In this document: piece after piece, positions 3,521-20,529 of the stretch
Layout of the letters: every line of letters starts with the position of its first letter
Numbering within the stretch: the first letter of the stretch is position 1
Virus record (IMG/VR): IMGVR_UViG_3300035242_000024
Location: 1 to 33,734 of that record
Length of the DNA: 33,734 nucleotides
Reading direction: 5' to 3' (one strand)
Origin: a virus
Notes under the pieces: generated by a model
Told to the model about the DNA's origin: nothing
What the model saw: the letters and a program-made list of their open reading frames with translations, nothing else
The model's database searches: none
Made by a program: the position numbers and the translations under genes

Positions 3521-4215
3521 TGGCCTGCCTTCCGTTCGTCGGCGCGCCGGTTGATCTGCTGGCAGGTGCTGGTGCATGGGCAGGCGTAGCCGGGTCCGGT
3601 ACCGATGCAGGATGGCGCGCCTGGGCGGTCTTCGTCGGGGTGCAGGTGCGCCTGGTGGTTGCAGTCGGGGCACCATTTGGCGGGTTCGGCGCGGAATGCG
3701 GGCTTGCAGCAGTGCGCGGCGGTGATCTCCGACGCGTACTCGCTGTTGCAGCGTGGGCAGATGTGGGTCACGTCCGGGTCGAGGCCCGGATCTGCGCGGT
3801 CGTGCTCGTCGACGCCCAGTTCTGCCGCCGCGACCCGGAGCATGCCGCGTACGGTCGCCGAGCCGAGACATTCGCCGTCGCCGTGCAGGCCGATCCAGGC
3901 GTCGAGCTGTCGCCGGACGTGGGCGAGTGCTTCGGCGGCGCCGCCGGTGTGGTCGACGTCGAGGGTGGGCGGCAGCACCGTGAGCACCCGGTTCGGGTTG
4001 TTCATGAACCGCGCCTTGATCTCGTCGTATTCGGCGGGCGTCAGCGGGGTCGGGGGCTGGATGATGATCGGGCGTACCGGGCCGTGGACCCGGTCGATCT
4101 CGTTCAGCGCTTCGACGATCAGCGCGGCGTCGGCGGGGTCGAAGCAGACGCCGATGTACTGGTCGTCGCGGCAGATGGTGACGCCGTGGTGGTTGCCGAC
4201 GCGGTAGGTGGTCAC
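3517..4215 (-). CDS. hypothetical protein with C-terminal zinc-binding region
   Basis: 232 residues, starting VTTYRVGNHHGVTICRDDQYIGVCFDP at GTG 4215. The ribosome binding site and first codons lie in a 21-bp stretch (4204-4224) repeated at 4622-4642, before another gene that also begins VTTY. The C-terminal third is rich in Cys and His (HICPRCNSEY, HCCKPAF, WCPDCNHQAHLH, CPCTSTC), enough ligands for two or three zinc sites. The middle is unremarkable. No family recognised; a nucleic-acid-binding role is only an inference. Confidence 0.7.
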   Translation of the reverse strand: MTTYRVGNHHGVTICRDDQYIGVCFDPADAALIVEALNEIDRVHGPVRPIIIQPPTPLTPAEYDEIKARFMNNPNRVLTVLPPTLDVDHTGGAAEALAHVRRQLDAWIGLHGDGECLGSATVRGMLRVAAAELGVDEHDRADPGLDPDVTHICPRCNSEYASEITAAHCCKPAFRAEPAKWCPDCNHQAHLHPDEDRPGAPSCIGTGPGYACPCTSTCQQINRRADERKAGQ

Positions 4216-4442
4216 GGCTGCTCCAGTTCGGGTCGTGGTGCGACGGTCTCGCCGTCGATGACCTGCCCCAGTCCGCACATCTGGCGGATGCGTGCGTAGT
4301 CCTCGGCGGTCAGGATCGGCTCGTACTTCTCGCGGAGGATGCGCTCGAACTCGGCTGGGCTGGGCAGGTTGGCCTTGAGCGCGTTGACGTCGATCGACGC
4401 GGCGATGACGTCGTGGATCCGGCCGATGTCGGGATGGCTCAC
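4212..4442 (-). CDS. small hypothetical protein
   Basis: 76 residues: VSHPDIGRIHDVIAASIDVNALKANLPSPAEFERILREKYEPIL and so on. It appears soluble and helical, with no Cys cluster and no membrane segment. GTG 4442 overlaps the TGA of the upstream gene, and its own TGA overlaps the GTG of the next gene. Function unknown. Confidence 0.65.
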   Translation of the reverse strand: MSHPDIGRIHDVIAASIDVNALKANLPSPAEFERILREKYEPILTAEDYARIRQMCGLGQVIDGETVAPRPELEQP

Positions 4443-4633
4443 GGCTTGATCGCCTCCCAGTCGGTGACGGTGACGGTGCGTCGGTGCAGGTGGGGGCCGT
4501 CGGTGAAGGTGCCGCAGCAGCGGGCGGCCTCGATGAGTGCGCGCGCTTCGGCTTCGGTCTCGTACTGGCTGGCGTGCGGCTTGCCGGTCTTGCGGAGGGT
4601 TCCGGTGACGCGCCATTCCTCGTAGGTGGTCAC
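4439..4633 (-). CDS. small hypothetical protein beginning VTTY
   Basis: 64 residues: VTTYEEWRVTGTLRKTGKPHASQYETEAEARALIEAARCCGTF, ending HRRTVTVTDWEAIKP. It looks like a small beta-alpha-beta domain. The start region (4622-4642) is identical over 21 bp to that of the gene at 3517-4215, so both have the same ribosome binding site and the same first four residues. GTGA overlaps on both sides. Confidence 0.65.
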   Translation of the reverse strand: MTTYEEWRVTGTLRKTGKPHASQYETEAEARALIEAARCCGTFTDGPHLHRRTVTVTDWEAIKP

Positions 4634-5205
4634 GGCTGCTCCTCGCGCGGGGTCAGGCCGCACGTGACGGCGTCAGGGTTCATGGTCGTCAGTTCACCTG
4701 CGGGTAGCTCGGTCACCTCGCGGTAGCAGCAGCGGGTGGTGTCGCTGTCGTGGATCAGGTGGACGATGTCGCCTCCTGTGCCGTTCTCCGGCCATACCGT
4801 GCCCAGATCCACCGGCGGGACGGTTTCGGCCGCCAGCGTTGAAATGGAAGCGCTTACCTGATCCTCTGCGGGGAAGTCCTCGACCATCGCGGCGACGATT
4901 TGCCGCAGCAGTTCGTCTCCGTCGGCCTGGGACAGGTGCGCGTGGTTGTCGATCGCGGCGTTCGGGCACGCCGGATCGGTACACCGACCGTTGGCCGCAC
5001 GCGGCGCCGGCCCGGCGTCCCGGGGGATGAGCGCCAGGTCGTAGCCGAGGGCGGCGGCCATGCGGGTCAGGTCGTCGATCGGCCTGCCCAGCTCGGCGCG
5101 GCTGATCCGCGCCTGCGGGATGCCGGTGCGGTCGGCGAGCTCGTACTGGGTGAGTCCGGCCTGCTGGCGGAGCTCGGCGAGGGTTGGTCCGTCGATCCGG
5201 ATCAC
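4630..5205 (-). CDS. XRE-family helix-turn-helix protein with C-terminal extension
   Basis: 191 residues from GTG 5205 with a clear CGGAGGA ribosome binding site. Residues about 5-60 (LAELRQQAGLTQYELADRTGIPQARISRAELGRPIDDLTRMAAALGYDLALI) form a standard XRE/Cro-type HTH. A short Cys motif follows (CTDPACPNAAIDNHAH), then about 100 residues of unknown function. Early-operon position suggests a regulator of later phage or host transcription (inference). Confidence 0.8.
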   Translation of the reverse strand: MIRIDGPTLAELRQQAGLTQYELADRTGIPQARISRAELGRPIDDLTRMAAALGYDLALIPRDAGPAPRAANGRCTDPACPNAAIDNHAHLSQADGDELLRQIVAAMVEDFPAEDQVSASISTLAAETVPPVDLGTVWPENGTGGDIVHLIHDSDTTRCCYREVTELPAGELTTMNPDAVTCGLTPREEQP

Positions 5206-6320: not shown

Positions 6321-6767
6321 GTGGTCTCTCCGGTGGTGTGTCGGGCAGGGTGGTCGGCGGTCACGACGGGTCGGCGGCGTGACGGTCGACCGCGAACTTG
6401 CCGCGCCAGTTCGGCGTCGTCGCGCCAGTCGCGGGGTGCGGATCTGCCAGGTGTGGCCGCCGCCGCAGCGTCCGTGTCGGGTAAGGCCCTTCCACTTCGT
6501 GCTGGCCGCCTTGCCTCCGCATTCGGGGCAGCGTCGGCCGTCGGCGACTTCGATGGCTTGGGCGATCTGCTCGGTGACGGCGCGGCGGGCGTCGGCGCGG
6601 GCGACTCGCATGCCGGTGCTGTAGCCGATGTTGAGCAGGTGCCGGACCTGGATGGCGTCGAGCGGGTTGTGTCTGAGGATGGCCTGGTTGAGCATGGCGC
6701 GGGCGACGTCGCGGTCGTACTCGGCTGCGTGGCGTTCGATGTAGTCGGGTAGCTCGGGCGTGCTCAT
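6317..6767 (-). CDS. zinc-ribbon hypothetical protein with apparent single-base frameshift
   Basis: From ATG 6767 the protein reads MSTPELPDYIERHAAEYDRDVARAMLNQAIL, then CPECGGKAASTKWKGLTRHGRC, a zinc ribbon. After HTWQIRTP the frame loses the GC3 pattern and becomes Arg-rich, running on without a stop into the next gene. One frame over, the sequence continues naturally as DWRDDAELARQVRGRPSRR...HTTGETT and stops at 6317, giving the ATGA overlap with 6320 seen at most other junctions. Removing one C from the run of four at 6433-6436 would restore it. This may be a sequencing error, a real mutation or programmed slippage. If it is not a shift, the product is a 230-residue fusion ending at 6075. 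Confidence 0.6.
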
Positions 6768-7621
6768 GAGGCTCTCCGGGATTCGAGGTGGACGACGGGG
6801 GCGAGGTGTTCGGCGGCGCAGACGCGGCACCGGTCCTTGCCGGGCAGTGGCGTGTGATCGCAGCGGCGTGGCCGGTGGGGCGGCGGCTCGGGGTCGGGCG
6901 GTCCGGCGCGGTGTTCGCGGCGGCAGAGCGCGCAGGCCGCTAGGCCGTCGGGGCGGGTTTGGATCTTGATGCCGTGGGCGCATTTCGTCGGGCGAGGAGA
7001 TGAATCAGGGGTTGGATCTTCGAGGGTCACGCGCGGACCAGTTACGTCCGCTGAAACCCCAGCCATCTCTTCTCCTTGATTCAGTCCTACTTCTCCTCCT
7101 TCTTCCTCGGGGTCCCGGTGAGTGGGGTCCGTTTGACCCGGTGAGTGGGGTCCGTTGGTCCGCTGAGTGGGGTCCGTTGTGCCCACTGAGTGGGTCCCAT
7201 TCGGCTCCGTGCGGGGTGCTTCCTGGTCGTAATGGGTCCCACTGAACGGGGTCCATTCGTCGCCGGAATGGGTCCCGGTGAGTGGGGTCCGTCGAGAGGT
7301 GAGATTGAGCGCGTAGACGGCGTTGCGGCCCGGCGCGGCGGGCACCAGGACCGTGATCGCGCCCGCGTCCCGCAGGGCGCCGAGCGCCCGGGTGACGGCC
7401 TTGAAGGCGCGCCGCCGCTCGGCGATCTCCTCGAAGTCCTGGGTGTGCTTGTCGGGCACCATGCGGCCGATCGCGAGGGCAAGTGACTCCCTGCCGCCCC
7501 AGAACGAGGGTCGCTCGCCGTCGTCCTTGGAGGTCACGGCCATGTAGGTCAGCAGGCGGAACGGCGCGTCGTCGAGGTCGTGCCACAGGGCGTAGACCAG
7601 CTTGACGTTTCCGGCACCCAT
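6764..7621 (-). CDS. winged-helix replication-initiator-like protein with internal iteron region and two zinc knuckles
   Basis: 285 residues. The N-terminal 110 (MGAGNVKLVYALWHDLDDAPFRLLTYMAV, ESLALAIGRMVPD, RAFKAVTRALGALRDAGAITVL, NAVYALNL) look like a winged-helix DNA-binding domain of the kind in phage and plasmid replication initiators. A low-complexity linker (about 110-180) of changing GPHS/DPTQ/DPTH peptides follows; its DNA contains six direct repeats. The C-terminus has two Cys/His knuckles (CAHGI...CALC and CDHTPLPGKDRCRVC). ATG 7621 shares a base with the TAA of a 24-codon leader. Replication initiation is inferred from the layout, which parallels lambda O with its internal origin; no catalytic motif is visible. 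Confidence 0.6.
   Translation of the reverse strand: MGAGNVKLVYALWHDLDDAPFRLLTYMAVTSKDDGERPSFWGGRESLALAIGRMVPDKHTQDFEEIAERRRAFKAVTRALGALRDAGAITVLVPAAPGRNAVYALNLTSRRTPLTGTHSGDEWTPFSGTHYDQEAPRTEPNGTHSVGTTDPTQRTNGPHSPGQTDPTHRDPEEEGGEVGLNQGEEMAGVSADVTGPRVTLEDPTPDSSPRPTKCAHGIKIQTRPDGLAACALCRREHRAGPPDPEPPPHRPRRCDHTPLPGKDRCRVCAAEHLAPVVHLESRRAS
7119..7290 (-). repeat. iteron-like direct repeats inside the initiator-like gene (possible origin)
   Basis: On the plus strand the core TGAGTGGGGTCC occurs at 7119-7130, 7142-7153, 7164-7175 and 7279-7290. Close variants lie at 7187-7198 (TGAGTGGGTCCC) and 7243-7254 (TGAACGGGGTCC). The first four copies are spaced 23, 22 and 23 bp, about two helical turns. 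Half copies (AATGGGTCCC) lie at 7231-7240 and 7267-7276. Since 22 and 23 are not multiples of three, successive copies are read in different frames (GPHS against DPTH/DPTQ), so conservation is at DNA level and not of the peptide. This is what iterons for an initiator would look like. Confidence 0.65.
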
Positions 7622-16612: not shown

Positions 16613-17013
16613 GCCCCGCCGCCTTCCAGCAGCGGGACCGCGCTCGGTGGTCGCGGCACCGGAGGCGGCGGCGGCCCGGGCGACGGCTGGGGCCGCGGCA
16701 TCGGCGGATCCGCCGCGAAGCGCGGCACCGCCGGGCGCAGCGGCAGGGAGAACCGGCCGGGGCGGGCCGGCAGGCCGAAGCCGTGGTGCCGGTGCTCACC
16801 GCCCCGGCCGGGGCTTGCGCCCGCGACGGGTGCCACCACAGCTCCGTCGCTTCCGCACGCCGCTGCTAGGCCAGCGACGGCAGGGCCGGGCGTCGGCCCC
16901 TTCCCTGCGGCTACAGGGGCCGAGGCGGAGCCCTTCTTCGGCGGCTTGTTCGGCGGCCGCTTCGGCGGAGGCGGGGCCTTCGGCGGAGGCGGACTCTTGG
17001 GCTTGTTGCTCAC
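16609..17013 (-). CDS. proline-rich low-complexity protein
   Basis: 134 residues from GTG 17013 (GTGA overlap). The N-terminus, VSNKPKSPPPPKAPPPPKRPPNKPPKKGS, is Lys/Pro-rich. A Gly/Ala-rich middle with a possible metal-binding EHRHHGF follows, then a second Pro-rich stretch (PRPQPSPGPPPPPVPRPPS). It is probably disordered and basic. Reading frame is supported by overlaps at both ends, not by homology. Confidence 0.55.
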   Translation of the reverse strand: MSNKPKSPPPPKAPPPPKRPPNKPPKKGSASAPVAAGKGPTPGPAVAGLAAACGSDGAVVAPVAGASPGRGGEHRHHGFGLPARPGRFSLPLRPAVPRFAADPPMPRPQPSPGPPPPPVPRPPSAVPLLEGGGA

Positions 17014-18278
17014 TTGCCCGCCTCCGAGATCAGGTCGTCGAGGGCGGCCAGCGCGTCGTGGGCTCGGTCGAGCAGCCCGACCAGCTCCTCGTCGTACGGG
17101 CCGAGCTGCCGGACCCAGGTCGCGAGGTAGGCCGGGCCGGAGGTCGGCGAAAGCAGCTCGACGACCTGCAGCAGCCGGAACCGCGCGGCCCGACGCTCGG
17201 CCATCTCCACCTCGGTCGGCTCGTCGACCTTCGGCTCGGCCAGCGCCCACCGCGTGCCACCCGGGCCGCCCACGCCAACCACGCGGCCCGCGTCGGCCAG
17301 CTCCCGCAGCGCGGGCTCAACCCACGACGAATGCACGCCCGGCATCGGCAGCTTCGTCCACACCTCGACCCGGGTGAGGCCATGGTCGGCGTCGGCGAGC
17401 ACCGACAGGATCTCGGCGGCCAGCTCGATGCGCTGCGCGGCGGTCGGGACCGGAGCGGCATCCGAAGGCTCGTCCGGCTCCCGCGGCGGGACGGGGGCAT
17501 CCGCCACGGGAGCCAGCTCACCCGCGCCGGCCTGAGCAGCCGACAGGTCGGCGGCCGGTACGGGGGTCGTGCCCGGGACGGCCGAGGGAGCAGTGTCGGC
17601 CTCGACCGGCCCGGGAGTCTGGACGTCGACCAGCTCGGTGAGCGCCCACAGCATGCCGCCGTCGACCTCGCCGACCACGCATGCGCGATCCTCGCCGGCC
17701 AGCCGCTCCAAGATGGGGGCCATCCGCACGGTCAGCTCGGCACGCTCGGCGTCAGGCCCGCCGGAGTCGATGAGGAACGCCAGCTGCCAGGCCGTCATGC
17801 CGGTAGCGCCAGCCGTGGCCAACGCGCGCAGGACGTCCGGCGTGAGATCGGGCTCGGGCTTCGGCTCGGCGCGCTCCTCGACGACCTCGCGAATCTTCTC
17901 GGCGGTCGGCTTGCCCTTGCGTCCGCGCCCGGCAGCCTCGGCTAGCACCTCGGCGCGCTGCTCCTCGGGGACCTTGGCCAGCTCACGAGCCTGAGCCTCG
18001 TTCTCGATAGGAACAGCTGTTCCGATTTCCGCGGCCTGGATCAGCTGGCGACCGCGACGGCCGGTGAAGTTCCACCGGACCGCGCAGTACTCCTCGAAGG
18101 TGTCGCACTGGGCGCGGTAGAGCCGGTTCTGCTGGATCGCGGCGAGCGCCATGCCGACCTCGATGAAGGTCTTCATGCCGCGCTCGATGCGCTCCTCGCA
18201 GTCGGACAGCGCGATGGCCTCGGTCCGACTGAGGACGTCGGCGCCGATGGGGGCGTGGCCGGTAACCGTGGCGGTCAT
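17010..18278 (-). CDS. TFEEYC-motif protein with C-terminal winged-helix-like unit
   Basis: 422 residues from ATG 18278. Residues about 20-85 (LSDCEERIERGMKTFIEVGMALAAIQQNRLYRAQCDTFEEYCAVRWNFTGRRGRQLIQAAEIG) form a domain frequent in phage and plasmid DNA-binding proteins. It is followed by ELAKVPEEQRAEVLAEAAGRGRKGKPTAEKIREVVEE, like the helical part of ParB-type proteins. After an Ala/Pro linker comes EILSVLADADHGLTRVEVWTKLPMPGVHSSWVEPALRELADAGRVVGVGG, which reads as a winged helix. Sequence-specific DNA binding is likely by inference. The next gene shares the first domain. Confidence 0.7.
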   Translation of the reverse strand: MTATVTGHAPIGADVLSRTEAIALSDCEERIERGMKTFIEVGMALAAIQQNRLYRAQCDTFEEYCAVRWNFTGRRGRQLIQAAEIGTAVPIENEAQARELAKVPEEQRAEVLAEAAGRGRKGKPTAEKIREVVEERAEPKPEPDLTPDVLRALATAGATGMTAWQLAFLIDSGGPDAERAELTVRMAPILERLAGEDRACVVGEVDGGMLWALTELVDVQTPGPVEADTAPSAVPGTTPVPAADLSAAQAGAGELAPVADAPVPPREPDEPSDAAPVPTAAQRIELAAEILSVLADADHGLTRVEVWTKLPMPGVHSSWVEPALRELADAGRVVGVGGPGGTRWALAEPKVDEPTEVEMAERRAARFRLLQVVELLSPTSGPAYLATWVRQLGPYDEELVGLLDRAHDALAALDDLISEAGK

Positions 18279-18811
18279 GCCGACACCTCGCGCAGTTGCT
18301 CGGCCGTCAGCTCGAACCACTCGCCGTGGCGACGCTCGGCCGCAAACCGACGATGCAAGGCCGACTCGCCGGCCTGGCCGACGCCCGGCAGTGTCCCGAG
18401 GATCCGCAGCGGGATGGGGCACATGCGCTGGATTTCGGCCAGCCGGGCGACGGGGTCGCCGGCCACGCCGATCTTCACCAGCCCGCCGGTCGCGGCCTGG
18501 ATGAAGTAGACGGACCTCGTATCGGCGGACGAACCCTTGACGGCTGCGACGACGCGGTGGCGCTCGGCCAGACGCAGGCCGCGAGGCCCGAATTCGGTGA
18601 GGCAGTACTCCTCGAAGGTTTCGTAGCCGAGGGTCGCCCACGCGCCGCCCCTGTGCGCCTGCTTCAGGAGCGCGCCCACGGTCATGAAGCTGCGGGTCGC
18701 CGCATTCATCTGCGCAGTCAGCACGCGGGCGTCATCGGCGGAGAGGGGCTTGCCCCAGTCGCGACCGGCGTCGACCAGGGCGGTCGAGCGGGGAAGGGTG
18801 GCGGCGGTCAT
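18275..18811 (-). CDS. TFEEYC-motif protein with T5orf172/MUG113 (GIY-YIG-like) domain
   Basis: 178 residues from ATG 18811. Residues about 28-85 (LTAQMNAATRSFMTVGALLKQAHRGGAWATLGYETFEEYCLTEFGPRGLRLAERHRVV) repeat the domain seen at the start of the neighbouring gene. From about 98 it reads SVYFIQAATGGLVKIGVAGDPVARLAEIQRMCP, then ALHRRFAAERRHGEWFEL. This is the VYF..G.VKIG....R......(C)P pattern of the T5orf172/MUG113 branch of GIY-YIG folds, complete with HRRF and GEWF. DNA nicking or binding is possible. It is the second gene of the early operon and overlaps the first by ATGA. Confidence 0.75.
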   Translation of the reverse strand: MTAATLPRSTALVDAGRDWGKPLSADDARVLTAQMNAATRSFMTVGALLKQAHRGGAWATLGYETFEEYCLTEFGPRGLRLAERHRVVAAVKGSSADTRSVYFIQAATGGLVKIGVAGDPVARLAEIQRMCPIPLRILGTLPGVGQAGESALHRRFAAERRHGEWFELTAEQLREVSA

Positions 18812-19166: not shown

Positions 19167-19622
19167 ATGACGACCGAACCGCAGCCGAGCGCAGACCGGC
19201 AGCTAGGGGCGATCCCGGCGGACTCCTTCGCCAACCGCCTGATGCTCACCCGCGCTCACGCAGGTCACCTGTCGATCCGCGAAGCGGCAGACCTGTGCGA
19301 CCTCGGCCGGGGGGCCTGGACCAACTGGGAGAAGGGAACGCTCCCCGGCGACATCATCGACGTGGCCACGACGGTGGCCAGCCGGCTAGGCGTGGATCGA
19401 GACTGGCTACTCTTCGGCGGCCAGCTCAGCCAGGCCGAAAATCGGCCGGCGCGGAGGCGGGGAACCGCCCCGCGTAGTACCCACGGGTGTGCAACGGTAC
19501 CCGCTGGTAGGGGCCGTGACACGGTCCGCGCGATGGACAACCGGCCACCCGGACGGCCTTCCGCCGCTACCGCCCCGGGCATCATCCGAACGGCCTACCT
19601 GCAGCGGCCCGGACGGTCGTAG
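19167..19622 (+). CDS. phage immunity-repressor-type HTH protein
   Basis: 151 residues. Residues about 20-80 (FANRLMLTRAHAGHLSIREAADLCDLGRGAWTNWEKGTLPGDIIDVATTVASRLGVDRDWLLFG) form an XRE-type HTH with the typical trailing WLLFG. The C-terminal 60 residues are Arg/Pro-rich and look disordered (DNRPPGRPSAATAP). It is divergent from the early operon, flanked by two related palindromes, and lies 16 bases before the integrase gene, so it is very probably the lysogeny repressor. The absence of an LexA-like protease domain means induction works differently from lambda CI. Confidence 0.85.
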   Translation: MTTEPQPSADRQLGAIPADSFANRLMLTRAHAGHLSIREAADLCDLGRGAWTNWEKGTLPGDIIDVATTVASRLGVDRDWLLFGGQLSQAENRPARRRGTAPRSTHGCATVPAGRGRDTVRAMDNRPPGRPSAATAPGIIRTAYLQRPGRS

Positions 19623-19638
19623 AGAGGCTGGACGAACG

Positions 19639-20529
19639 ATGCGTAAGCTTCCCCGCTCGGACGACCCTCAAGCCATGGAACTCATCGACGCCTACTGCGA
19701 GTCGCTCCGCCAGGCCGGCCGCTCCCAGCAGACCATCGACGGCCGCCGGGCCATCCTCGAACGCCTCGACGGCGCCCTGACGTTCGGGGTCGGCGCGGTC
19801 ACCCGCGAGGACCTCGCCGAGTGGCTCTACCGCGACAAGTGGAGCCAGAACGCGAAGGCCACCTACTGGCGGGCCATCCGCAGCTTCTACACCTGGGCGT
19901 GCAACCCGCGGGACCCGTGGCTCGCCGGCGACAACCCCACCGACGACATGCCGCCCGTTCGCACCGCCGACGGCATCGCGCACCCATGCACCGACGAGGA
20001 GCTGCGGCGGATCCTCACCGAGGCGGCCCAGCCCTACCGGCTGTGGGCGCTACTGGCGGCCTACCAGGGCCTGCGGGCTTGTGAGATCTCCGGCCTCGAC
20101 CGCGAGCACGTCGACGCCCGGCAGTTGTTCGTGGTGCGCGGAAAGGGCGGCAGGCCCAGGACGCACGACACGGATGACGCCGTGTGGCGTGCGATCAAGG
20201 ATCTGCCGCCCGGGCCGCTGGCCCGCCGGCCCGACGGGCAGCGCGCCGACCCTCACTACGTCGCGGTGTACACCCGCGACCACTTCCACCGCAAGCTGAA
20301 GATCAAGACCAGCTTGCACTCGCTACGGCACTGGCTCGGCTGCACCGTCCAGCGCGAATTCCGCAATATCCGGGTCACTCAGGAACTGCTCGGACACAAG
20401 CAGCTCTCCTCGACGCAGATCTACACCTGGGCCAGCGACGAGGAGAAGCGGGCTGCCAGGGCTACTCTTCCTCGGCTGGCGGAGGAAGCTCCTCGACCTG
20501 AGAGTGAGGCCGGCGGTCGCGTCGGATGA
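19639..20529 (+). CDS. int: tyrosine recombinase (phage integrase)
   Basis: 296 residues from ATG 19639. The N-terminal core-binding SAM-like domain spans about 13-100 (LIDAYCESLRQAGRSQQTIDGRRAILERL...AKATYWRAIRSFYTWACN). The catalytic set is complete: R146 in YQGLRACEISGL, K169 in VRGKGGRPR, H227-x-x-R230 in LHSLRHWLG, H253 in LLGHKQLSSTQIY and the nucleophile Y262. It is a small integrase without an arm-binding extension of note. It follows the repressor in what looks like one plus-strand unit; the last 68 bases overlap a convergent gene. It should catalyse attP x attB recombination. Confidence 0.95.
   Translation: MRKLPRSDDPQAMELIDAYCESLRQAGRSQQTIDGRRAILERLDGALTFGVGAVTREDLAEWLYRDKWSQNAKATYWRAIRSFYTWACNPRDPWLAGDNPTDDMPPVRTADGIAHPCTDEELRRILTEAAQPYRLWALLAAYQGLRACEISGLDREHVDARQLFVVRGKGGRPRTHDTDDAVWRAIKDLPPGPLARRPDGQRADPHYVAVYTRDHFHRKLKIKTSLHSLRHWLGCTVQREFRNIRVTQELLGHKQLSSTQIYTWASDEEKRAARATLPRLAEEAPRPESEAGGRVG

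Follow-up and report, generated by a model that had tools for sequence, protein, structure and literature searches.

A putative lambda O-like replication initiator of actinobacterial phages with a candidate origin inside its own gene

Introduction

In lambda-type phages, the origin is internal to the initiator gene O, with iterons beside an AT-rich tract at mid-gene (PMC7466680). A related placement is known from plasmids of the RepA_N type: pSK41 has its origin within rep, and the iterons of the RepA_N group are semi-palindromic, their arms meeting at an A tract (PMC5703833, PMC7145576). The RepA-like proteins of extrachromosomal mycobacterial prophages are actinobacterial phage initiators, with an origin suspected near or within their genes (PMC7157519).

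Here, we describe a gene from a phage of high-GC actinobacteria that carries an iteron array in its middle. From its sequence and from those of its relatives, we consider it very likely that this gene encodes a lambda O-like replication initiator and contains the origin.

Results

The window, by which we mean the whole stretch of DNA analysed, is an IMG/VR virus record of 33,734 bp with a GC content of 70%, and its base composition was the basis for assigning the phage to high-GC actinobacterial hosts. Tail genes occupy 24–33 kb, and a tyrosine integrase gene is located at 19,489–20,529. No helicase, primase or polymerase gene was recognised in the record, which is a fragment, and the phage may have a second origin elsewhere. 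Two pairs of identical 21-bp direct repeats were observed near gene ends or starts (869–889 with 1467–1487, and 4204–4224 with 4622–4642). The genes at 17010–18641 and 18275–18811 have a "TFEEYC" type stretch in common and are a possible duplication; a terminal domain of the latter matched several PHROG families of unknown function.

The gene under study is encoded on the minus strand (6764..7621) and its product, P0001, has 285 amino acids. An M-G-A/S/G start conserved in 12 of 13 aligned N-terminal domains supports the ATG at 7621. AlphaFold2 predicted residues 1–110 (7292..7621, minus strand) as a confident winged helix (pLDDT 92), and this domain is the sole part common to the whole family. 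The C-terminal module (6764..6990, minus strand) is variable; its Cys/His pattern (CAHGIKI...CALCRREH) is also present in the relative L039, and the module is swapped or missing in other relatives.

P0001 itself showed no match in Pfam, PHROG, INPHARED or PLSDB. There was no match to Pfam RepA_N (PF06970) at E ≤ 1, and none to a KilA-N-like or BstA family. Several relatives matched PHROG 391, "replication initiation O-like" (L041, 6.4e-7; L042, 4.5e-5; L039, 1.3e-3; L032, 2.3e-3), those of L041 and L042 being significant. Fold matches in BFVD included the O protein of Escherichia phage Min27 (E = 4.6e-3, TM = 0.68). The PDB fold matches were weak (E = 0.26–1), and Rep-type initiators were among the top ones; 4pql, one of the PDB matches, is a RepA_N initiator.

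Within the gene, the sequence TGAGTGGGGTCC is present in four exact copies (7119..7130, 7142..7153, 7164..7175 and 7279..7290) and in two copies with two mismatches (7187..7198 and 7243..7254), all on the plus strand. The copy at 7279 is the first in the gene direction, and that at 7119 is the last and adjoins an A-rich tract. Successive copies are spaced by 23, 22, 23, 56 and 36 bp and occupy different reading frames. The initial annotation had delimited this gene and reported six copies in changing frames, the first four 22–23 bp apart, and it was correct in each respect, with frames mixed both in the window and across the family.

Nowhere else in the record does any 12-mer occur three or more times within 300 bp. 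Synonymous-codon shuffling (5000 rounds), which kept the protein and the codon counts, gave 0.09 exact copies on average and two at most, compared with the four observed. Copies with up to two mismatches averaged 3.4 with a maximum of eight after shuffling, so that this range overlaps the observed six. Across the whole window, matches with up to three mismatches were not above chance (31, compared with a chance mean of 45); the evidence for the window repeats therefore consists of their clustering and their exact copies.

Directly past the last iteron lies a low-GC, A-rich and T-poor tract (7059..7111, minus strand; GAGGAAGAAGGAGGAGAAGTAGGACTGAATCAAGGAGAAGAGATGGCTGG...), a proposed unwinding element. 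Its composition is A 0.42, T 0.06 and GC 0.52 (0.70 in the record), and no 50-mer elsewhere in the 33.7 kb record has a stronger A bias. Farther on, an alternating CG run (CGCGCG; 7029..7037, minus strand) is positioned about 98 bp past the start of the last iteron.

Relatives were gathered solely through homology to the N-terminal domain at the protein level, none being picked by its repeats. The protein served as query for actinobacterial genomes, and N-terminal domain alignments were used for IMG/VR. The actinobacterial searches covered 395 genomes (single sequence) and 299 genomes (alignment), in partly overlapping sets, and yielded three intact members and one relic. The 12 relatives comprise L020, L021 and L032 from bacterial genomes and L038–L046 from viral contigs; L029/L045, L030/L038 and L031/L041 are duplicate loci, and L034–L037 were left out. 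Searches of INPHARED and PLSDB by tblastn with P0001 and several relatives found no relative. The relic, L033 (1501–1995), is a decayed chromosomal one in which only the first 52 amino acids are recognisable, and no clear repeat array was found in it. Matches to FAD-linked oxidases (such as L017, and L022–L028 by open frames) were taken as chance, and DNA-pattern scans for the exact repeat returned only unrelated coding or low-complexity repeats.

The conserved part of the family is the N-terminal domain of about 105 amino acids; the remainder is not conserved. Nevertheless, the window and the 12 relatives all carry their own repeats, three to six at each of the 13 loci, in arrays that begin about 300–550 nt past the start codon. 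Most steps between repeats are 22 bp (15 times), 23 bp (12 times) or 24 bp (three times), and the in-gene copies use all three frames (23/16/13). Equally good repeat windows outside the gene made up 0 to 0.95% of windows at these loci. The repeat sequence differs from phage to phage, being GACGTTCCAC in L045, ACGTAGGACG in L039, CGACGAAAAC in L042, ACGGAAACCG in L043 and GACCCCCCGG in L040. Palindromes of 15–21 bp, imperfect or perfect, were found within the iterons (e.g. CCCTACGGAATCCGTAGGG and GACCCCGGTGACCGGGGTC), which suggests that each site may be bound by one protein dimer. The array of L046, the closest relative of P0001 (53% identity over 211 amino acids), aligns with that of the window, and the inner bases shared by the copies differ between the two (CCCCGGTTA versus CCCCACTCA), as would be expected if the copies of an array change together. 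In L045, L021 and L020, the frame ends before or at the array and the layout is kept in largely non-coding DNA, which argues against selection on the peptide.

Iterons, tract and domain follow a fixed order across 14 phages or prophages. The A-rich tract ranks in the top 0.1% of A-biased 50-mers at 11 of 13 loci; that of L044 is unexceptional (3.5% of windows). CG runs occur at +95 to +102 in nine of 14 loci (eight runs of at least 6 nt and one of 5 nt), and 10 of the 14 have runs of at least 6 nt within 170 bp, compared with 3.4 expected. The loci with the run are the window, L046, L038–L043 and L032, and the run of phage Megan, described below, lies at 53–62 bp.

The window and L039 have C-terminal modules of the Cys/His type, those of L046, L041 and L032 look helical on inspection, and L045, L021 and L020 have none. 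This variety suggests that helicase recruitment may differ between hosts. Unrelated modules follow the iteron and A-tract region in P0001, L039, L046, L041, L032 and L044, a layout that looks as if recombination had taken place at the origin.

The fold search gave its best match (E = 3.8e-6) to an uncharacterised protein from the Microbacterium phage Megan; this protein was taken as gp53 by length and position (MN586020, located via PMC12352058). Megan is a cultured, lytic phage of Microbacterium paraoxydans. Its gp53 was found by fold only and the repeats were inspected afterwards: the gene contains four iterons (AAAGGTACACGCTCAGCG...) with steps of 35, 22 and 23 bp, a purine tract and CG runs, arranged as in the family. 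An hhalign comparison of gp53 with the family gave 95.7%, supporting homology.

Megan and phage Nicole72 are 84–87% identical on both flanks of the gp53 gene. Over the final ~100 bp before the gene, identity drops to 72%; homology ends at the gene start and returns at the gene end. The occupant of this position in Nicole72 is an unrelated helix-turn-helix protein with a match to a PHROG "replication initiation protein" (3e-13), and the exchange appears as a near-exact, gene-for-gene initiator replacement (Megan L050:39813–40496 versus Nicole72 L051:7410–7976). Judged from these alignments, the swap of gp53 for a recognised initiator provides strong functional evidence for an initiator role. 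The Nicole72 occupant gene, gene 54, also holds the most A-biased 50-mer of its 17 kb stretch. Its extreme A-rich tract is followed by GGCGCGGGCGCGCG (L051:7758–7830), a family-like layout around a different initiator in which the repeats are poor.

With regard to neighbouring genes, ssb is directly downstream of the gene in L045 and L021/L048, exonuclease VIII is upstream of it in L045, and RecE, ERF, HNH and ssDNA-binding genes are found near Megan gp53. No lambda P-like helicase loader was recognised among the genes scanned, loaders being hard to recognise. The GC skew minimum of Megan lies at 41–42 kb, with gp53 at 40 kb; the other loci disagree.

Discussion

Several explanations other than an origin can be considered for the repeats. 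An autoregulatory operator, at which a transcription regulator would bind the in-gene repeats to repress or roadblock transcription, would suit a small winged-helix protein with palindromic sites, and initiators often autoregulate too. However, none of the loci tested has an iteron copy within 400 bp upstream of the gene, four to six phased copies with an A-rich tract and O-like matches exceed the needs of an operator, and Nicole72 carries a replication initiator in place of the gene, which makes the operator improbable. The self-immunity element aba within the defence gene bstA offers another parallel, as it is DNA-based, overlaps its own gene and depends on direct repeats, and each protein variant has its cognate form (PMC8585504). 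It is a 63 bp element with two terminal 6-bp repeats that overlaps the gene start (PMC8585504), whereas here three to six phased palindromic repeats stand mid-gene beside an A-rich tract. The N-terminal domain looks O-like rather than KilA-N, and the family occurs in the lytic phage Megan. We thus regard an element of the aba kind as very unlikely.

Another candidate is a partition centromere, in which the protein would be a ParB/ParR-like binder and the repeats a parS array. Some centromeres are also repeat arrays beside a DNA-binding gene, and mycobacteriophage parS repeats adjoin repA (PMC7157519), but no ParA-type neighbour was seen, both an integrase-bearing and a lytic phage carry the family, and the A-rich tract and the initiator replacement would be left unexplained; its probability is accordingly very small. 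Finally, the repeats might be a by-product of protein-level selection on a linker peptide, given the recurring peptide motifs TPLTGTH, DPTH and NGPHS. Against this, frames are mixed within one gene, homologous copies of the window and L046 differ in frame, the exact copies do not survive synonymous shuffling, and the largely non-coding arrays contradict it, leaving a negligible chance that the repeats serve the peptide.

The initial annotation had proposed selection on the DNA rather than on the peptide, and the mixed frames, the codon shuffles and the largely non-coding arrays of L045, L021 and L020 agree with this. It had also proposed to look in relatives for a DNA core conserved amid changed peptides: the layout is indeed kept, but family members do not share one repeat sequence, each phage having its own set, conserved within that phage and located at the same position. 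The winged-helix N-terminus that it assumed is seen in the AlphaFold2 model, and its comparison with the lambda O arrangement gains from the O-like fold and PHROG 391 matches, the A-rich tract and the Nicole72 replacement. Its view that the family is undescribed stands as far as Pfam and NCBIfam are concerned, where there is no real match, but some members match PHROG 391. The initiators would represent a new family of an already known kind.

The proposed lambda O-like initiator shares with lambda O and ori-lambda, and with the O proteins of Stx phages (PMC7466680), four to six mid-gene iterons with an adjacent AT-rich tract, an N-terminal DNA-binding domain (predicted here), the fold match and, for some members, the PHROG 391 matches. 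It differs in its distant sequence, its steps of 22–24 bp, the extra CG run, a tract rich in A and G, not merely in A and T, within a genome of 70% GC, the lack of an identified lambda P homologue, and a C-terminal part that is variable or absent, the candidate origin then being outside the gene. Compared with the RepA_N initiators (pSK41, pTZ2162 and PLE RepA; PMC5703833, PMC7145576), the likeness to pSK41 is in layout only, with the origin-like region central in the gene. Semi-palindromic iteron arms meet at an A tract in L038, L042, L043 and L044, the C-terminal domain of RepA_N proteins varies by host, and Rep initiators are among the top, though weak, PDB matches. The differences are the lack of a Pfam RepA_N match and the occurrence in actinophages, not Firmicutes plasmids. 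In the mycobacterial prophages with RepA-like proteins, compared here by description only, no repeats were identified (PMC7157519).

From the anatomy and the lambda precedent, initiator dimers would fill the palindromic iterons mid-gene via the N-terminal winged helix, and the protein–DNA complex would open the adjoining A-rich, low-GC tract. The host replicative helicase would then be loaded by the C-terminal module or a partner, and the region would be used as an origin. Because the repeats lie within the initiator gene, initiator and origin may form a single DNA piece, so that the two would diverge together and pass together from phage to phage. On balance, we favour an undescribed actinophage family in which initiator and origin are one self-contained, swappable cassette. 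Its origin would have three parts, namely palindromic iterons cognate to the protein, the A-rich tract and, about 100 bp downstream, the CG run; binding specificity would change fast, and the presumed replisome-recruiting C-terminal module would be exchanged or absent.

To our knowledge, replication origins of actinobacterial phages have rarely been mapped. The signature of iterons, tract and domain would predict initiator and origin together, and the cultured phage Megan gives a laboratory system in which to test it. Relatives with their own protein–site pairs form a natural data set on changes of initiator specificity, and small origin cassettes for vectors of high-GC hosts could result.
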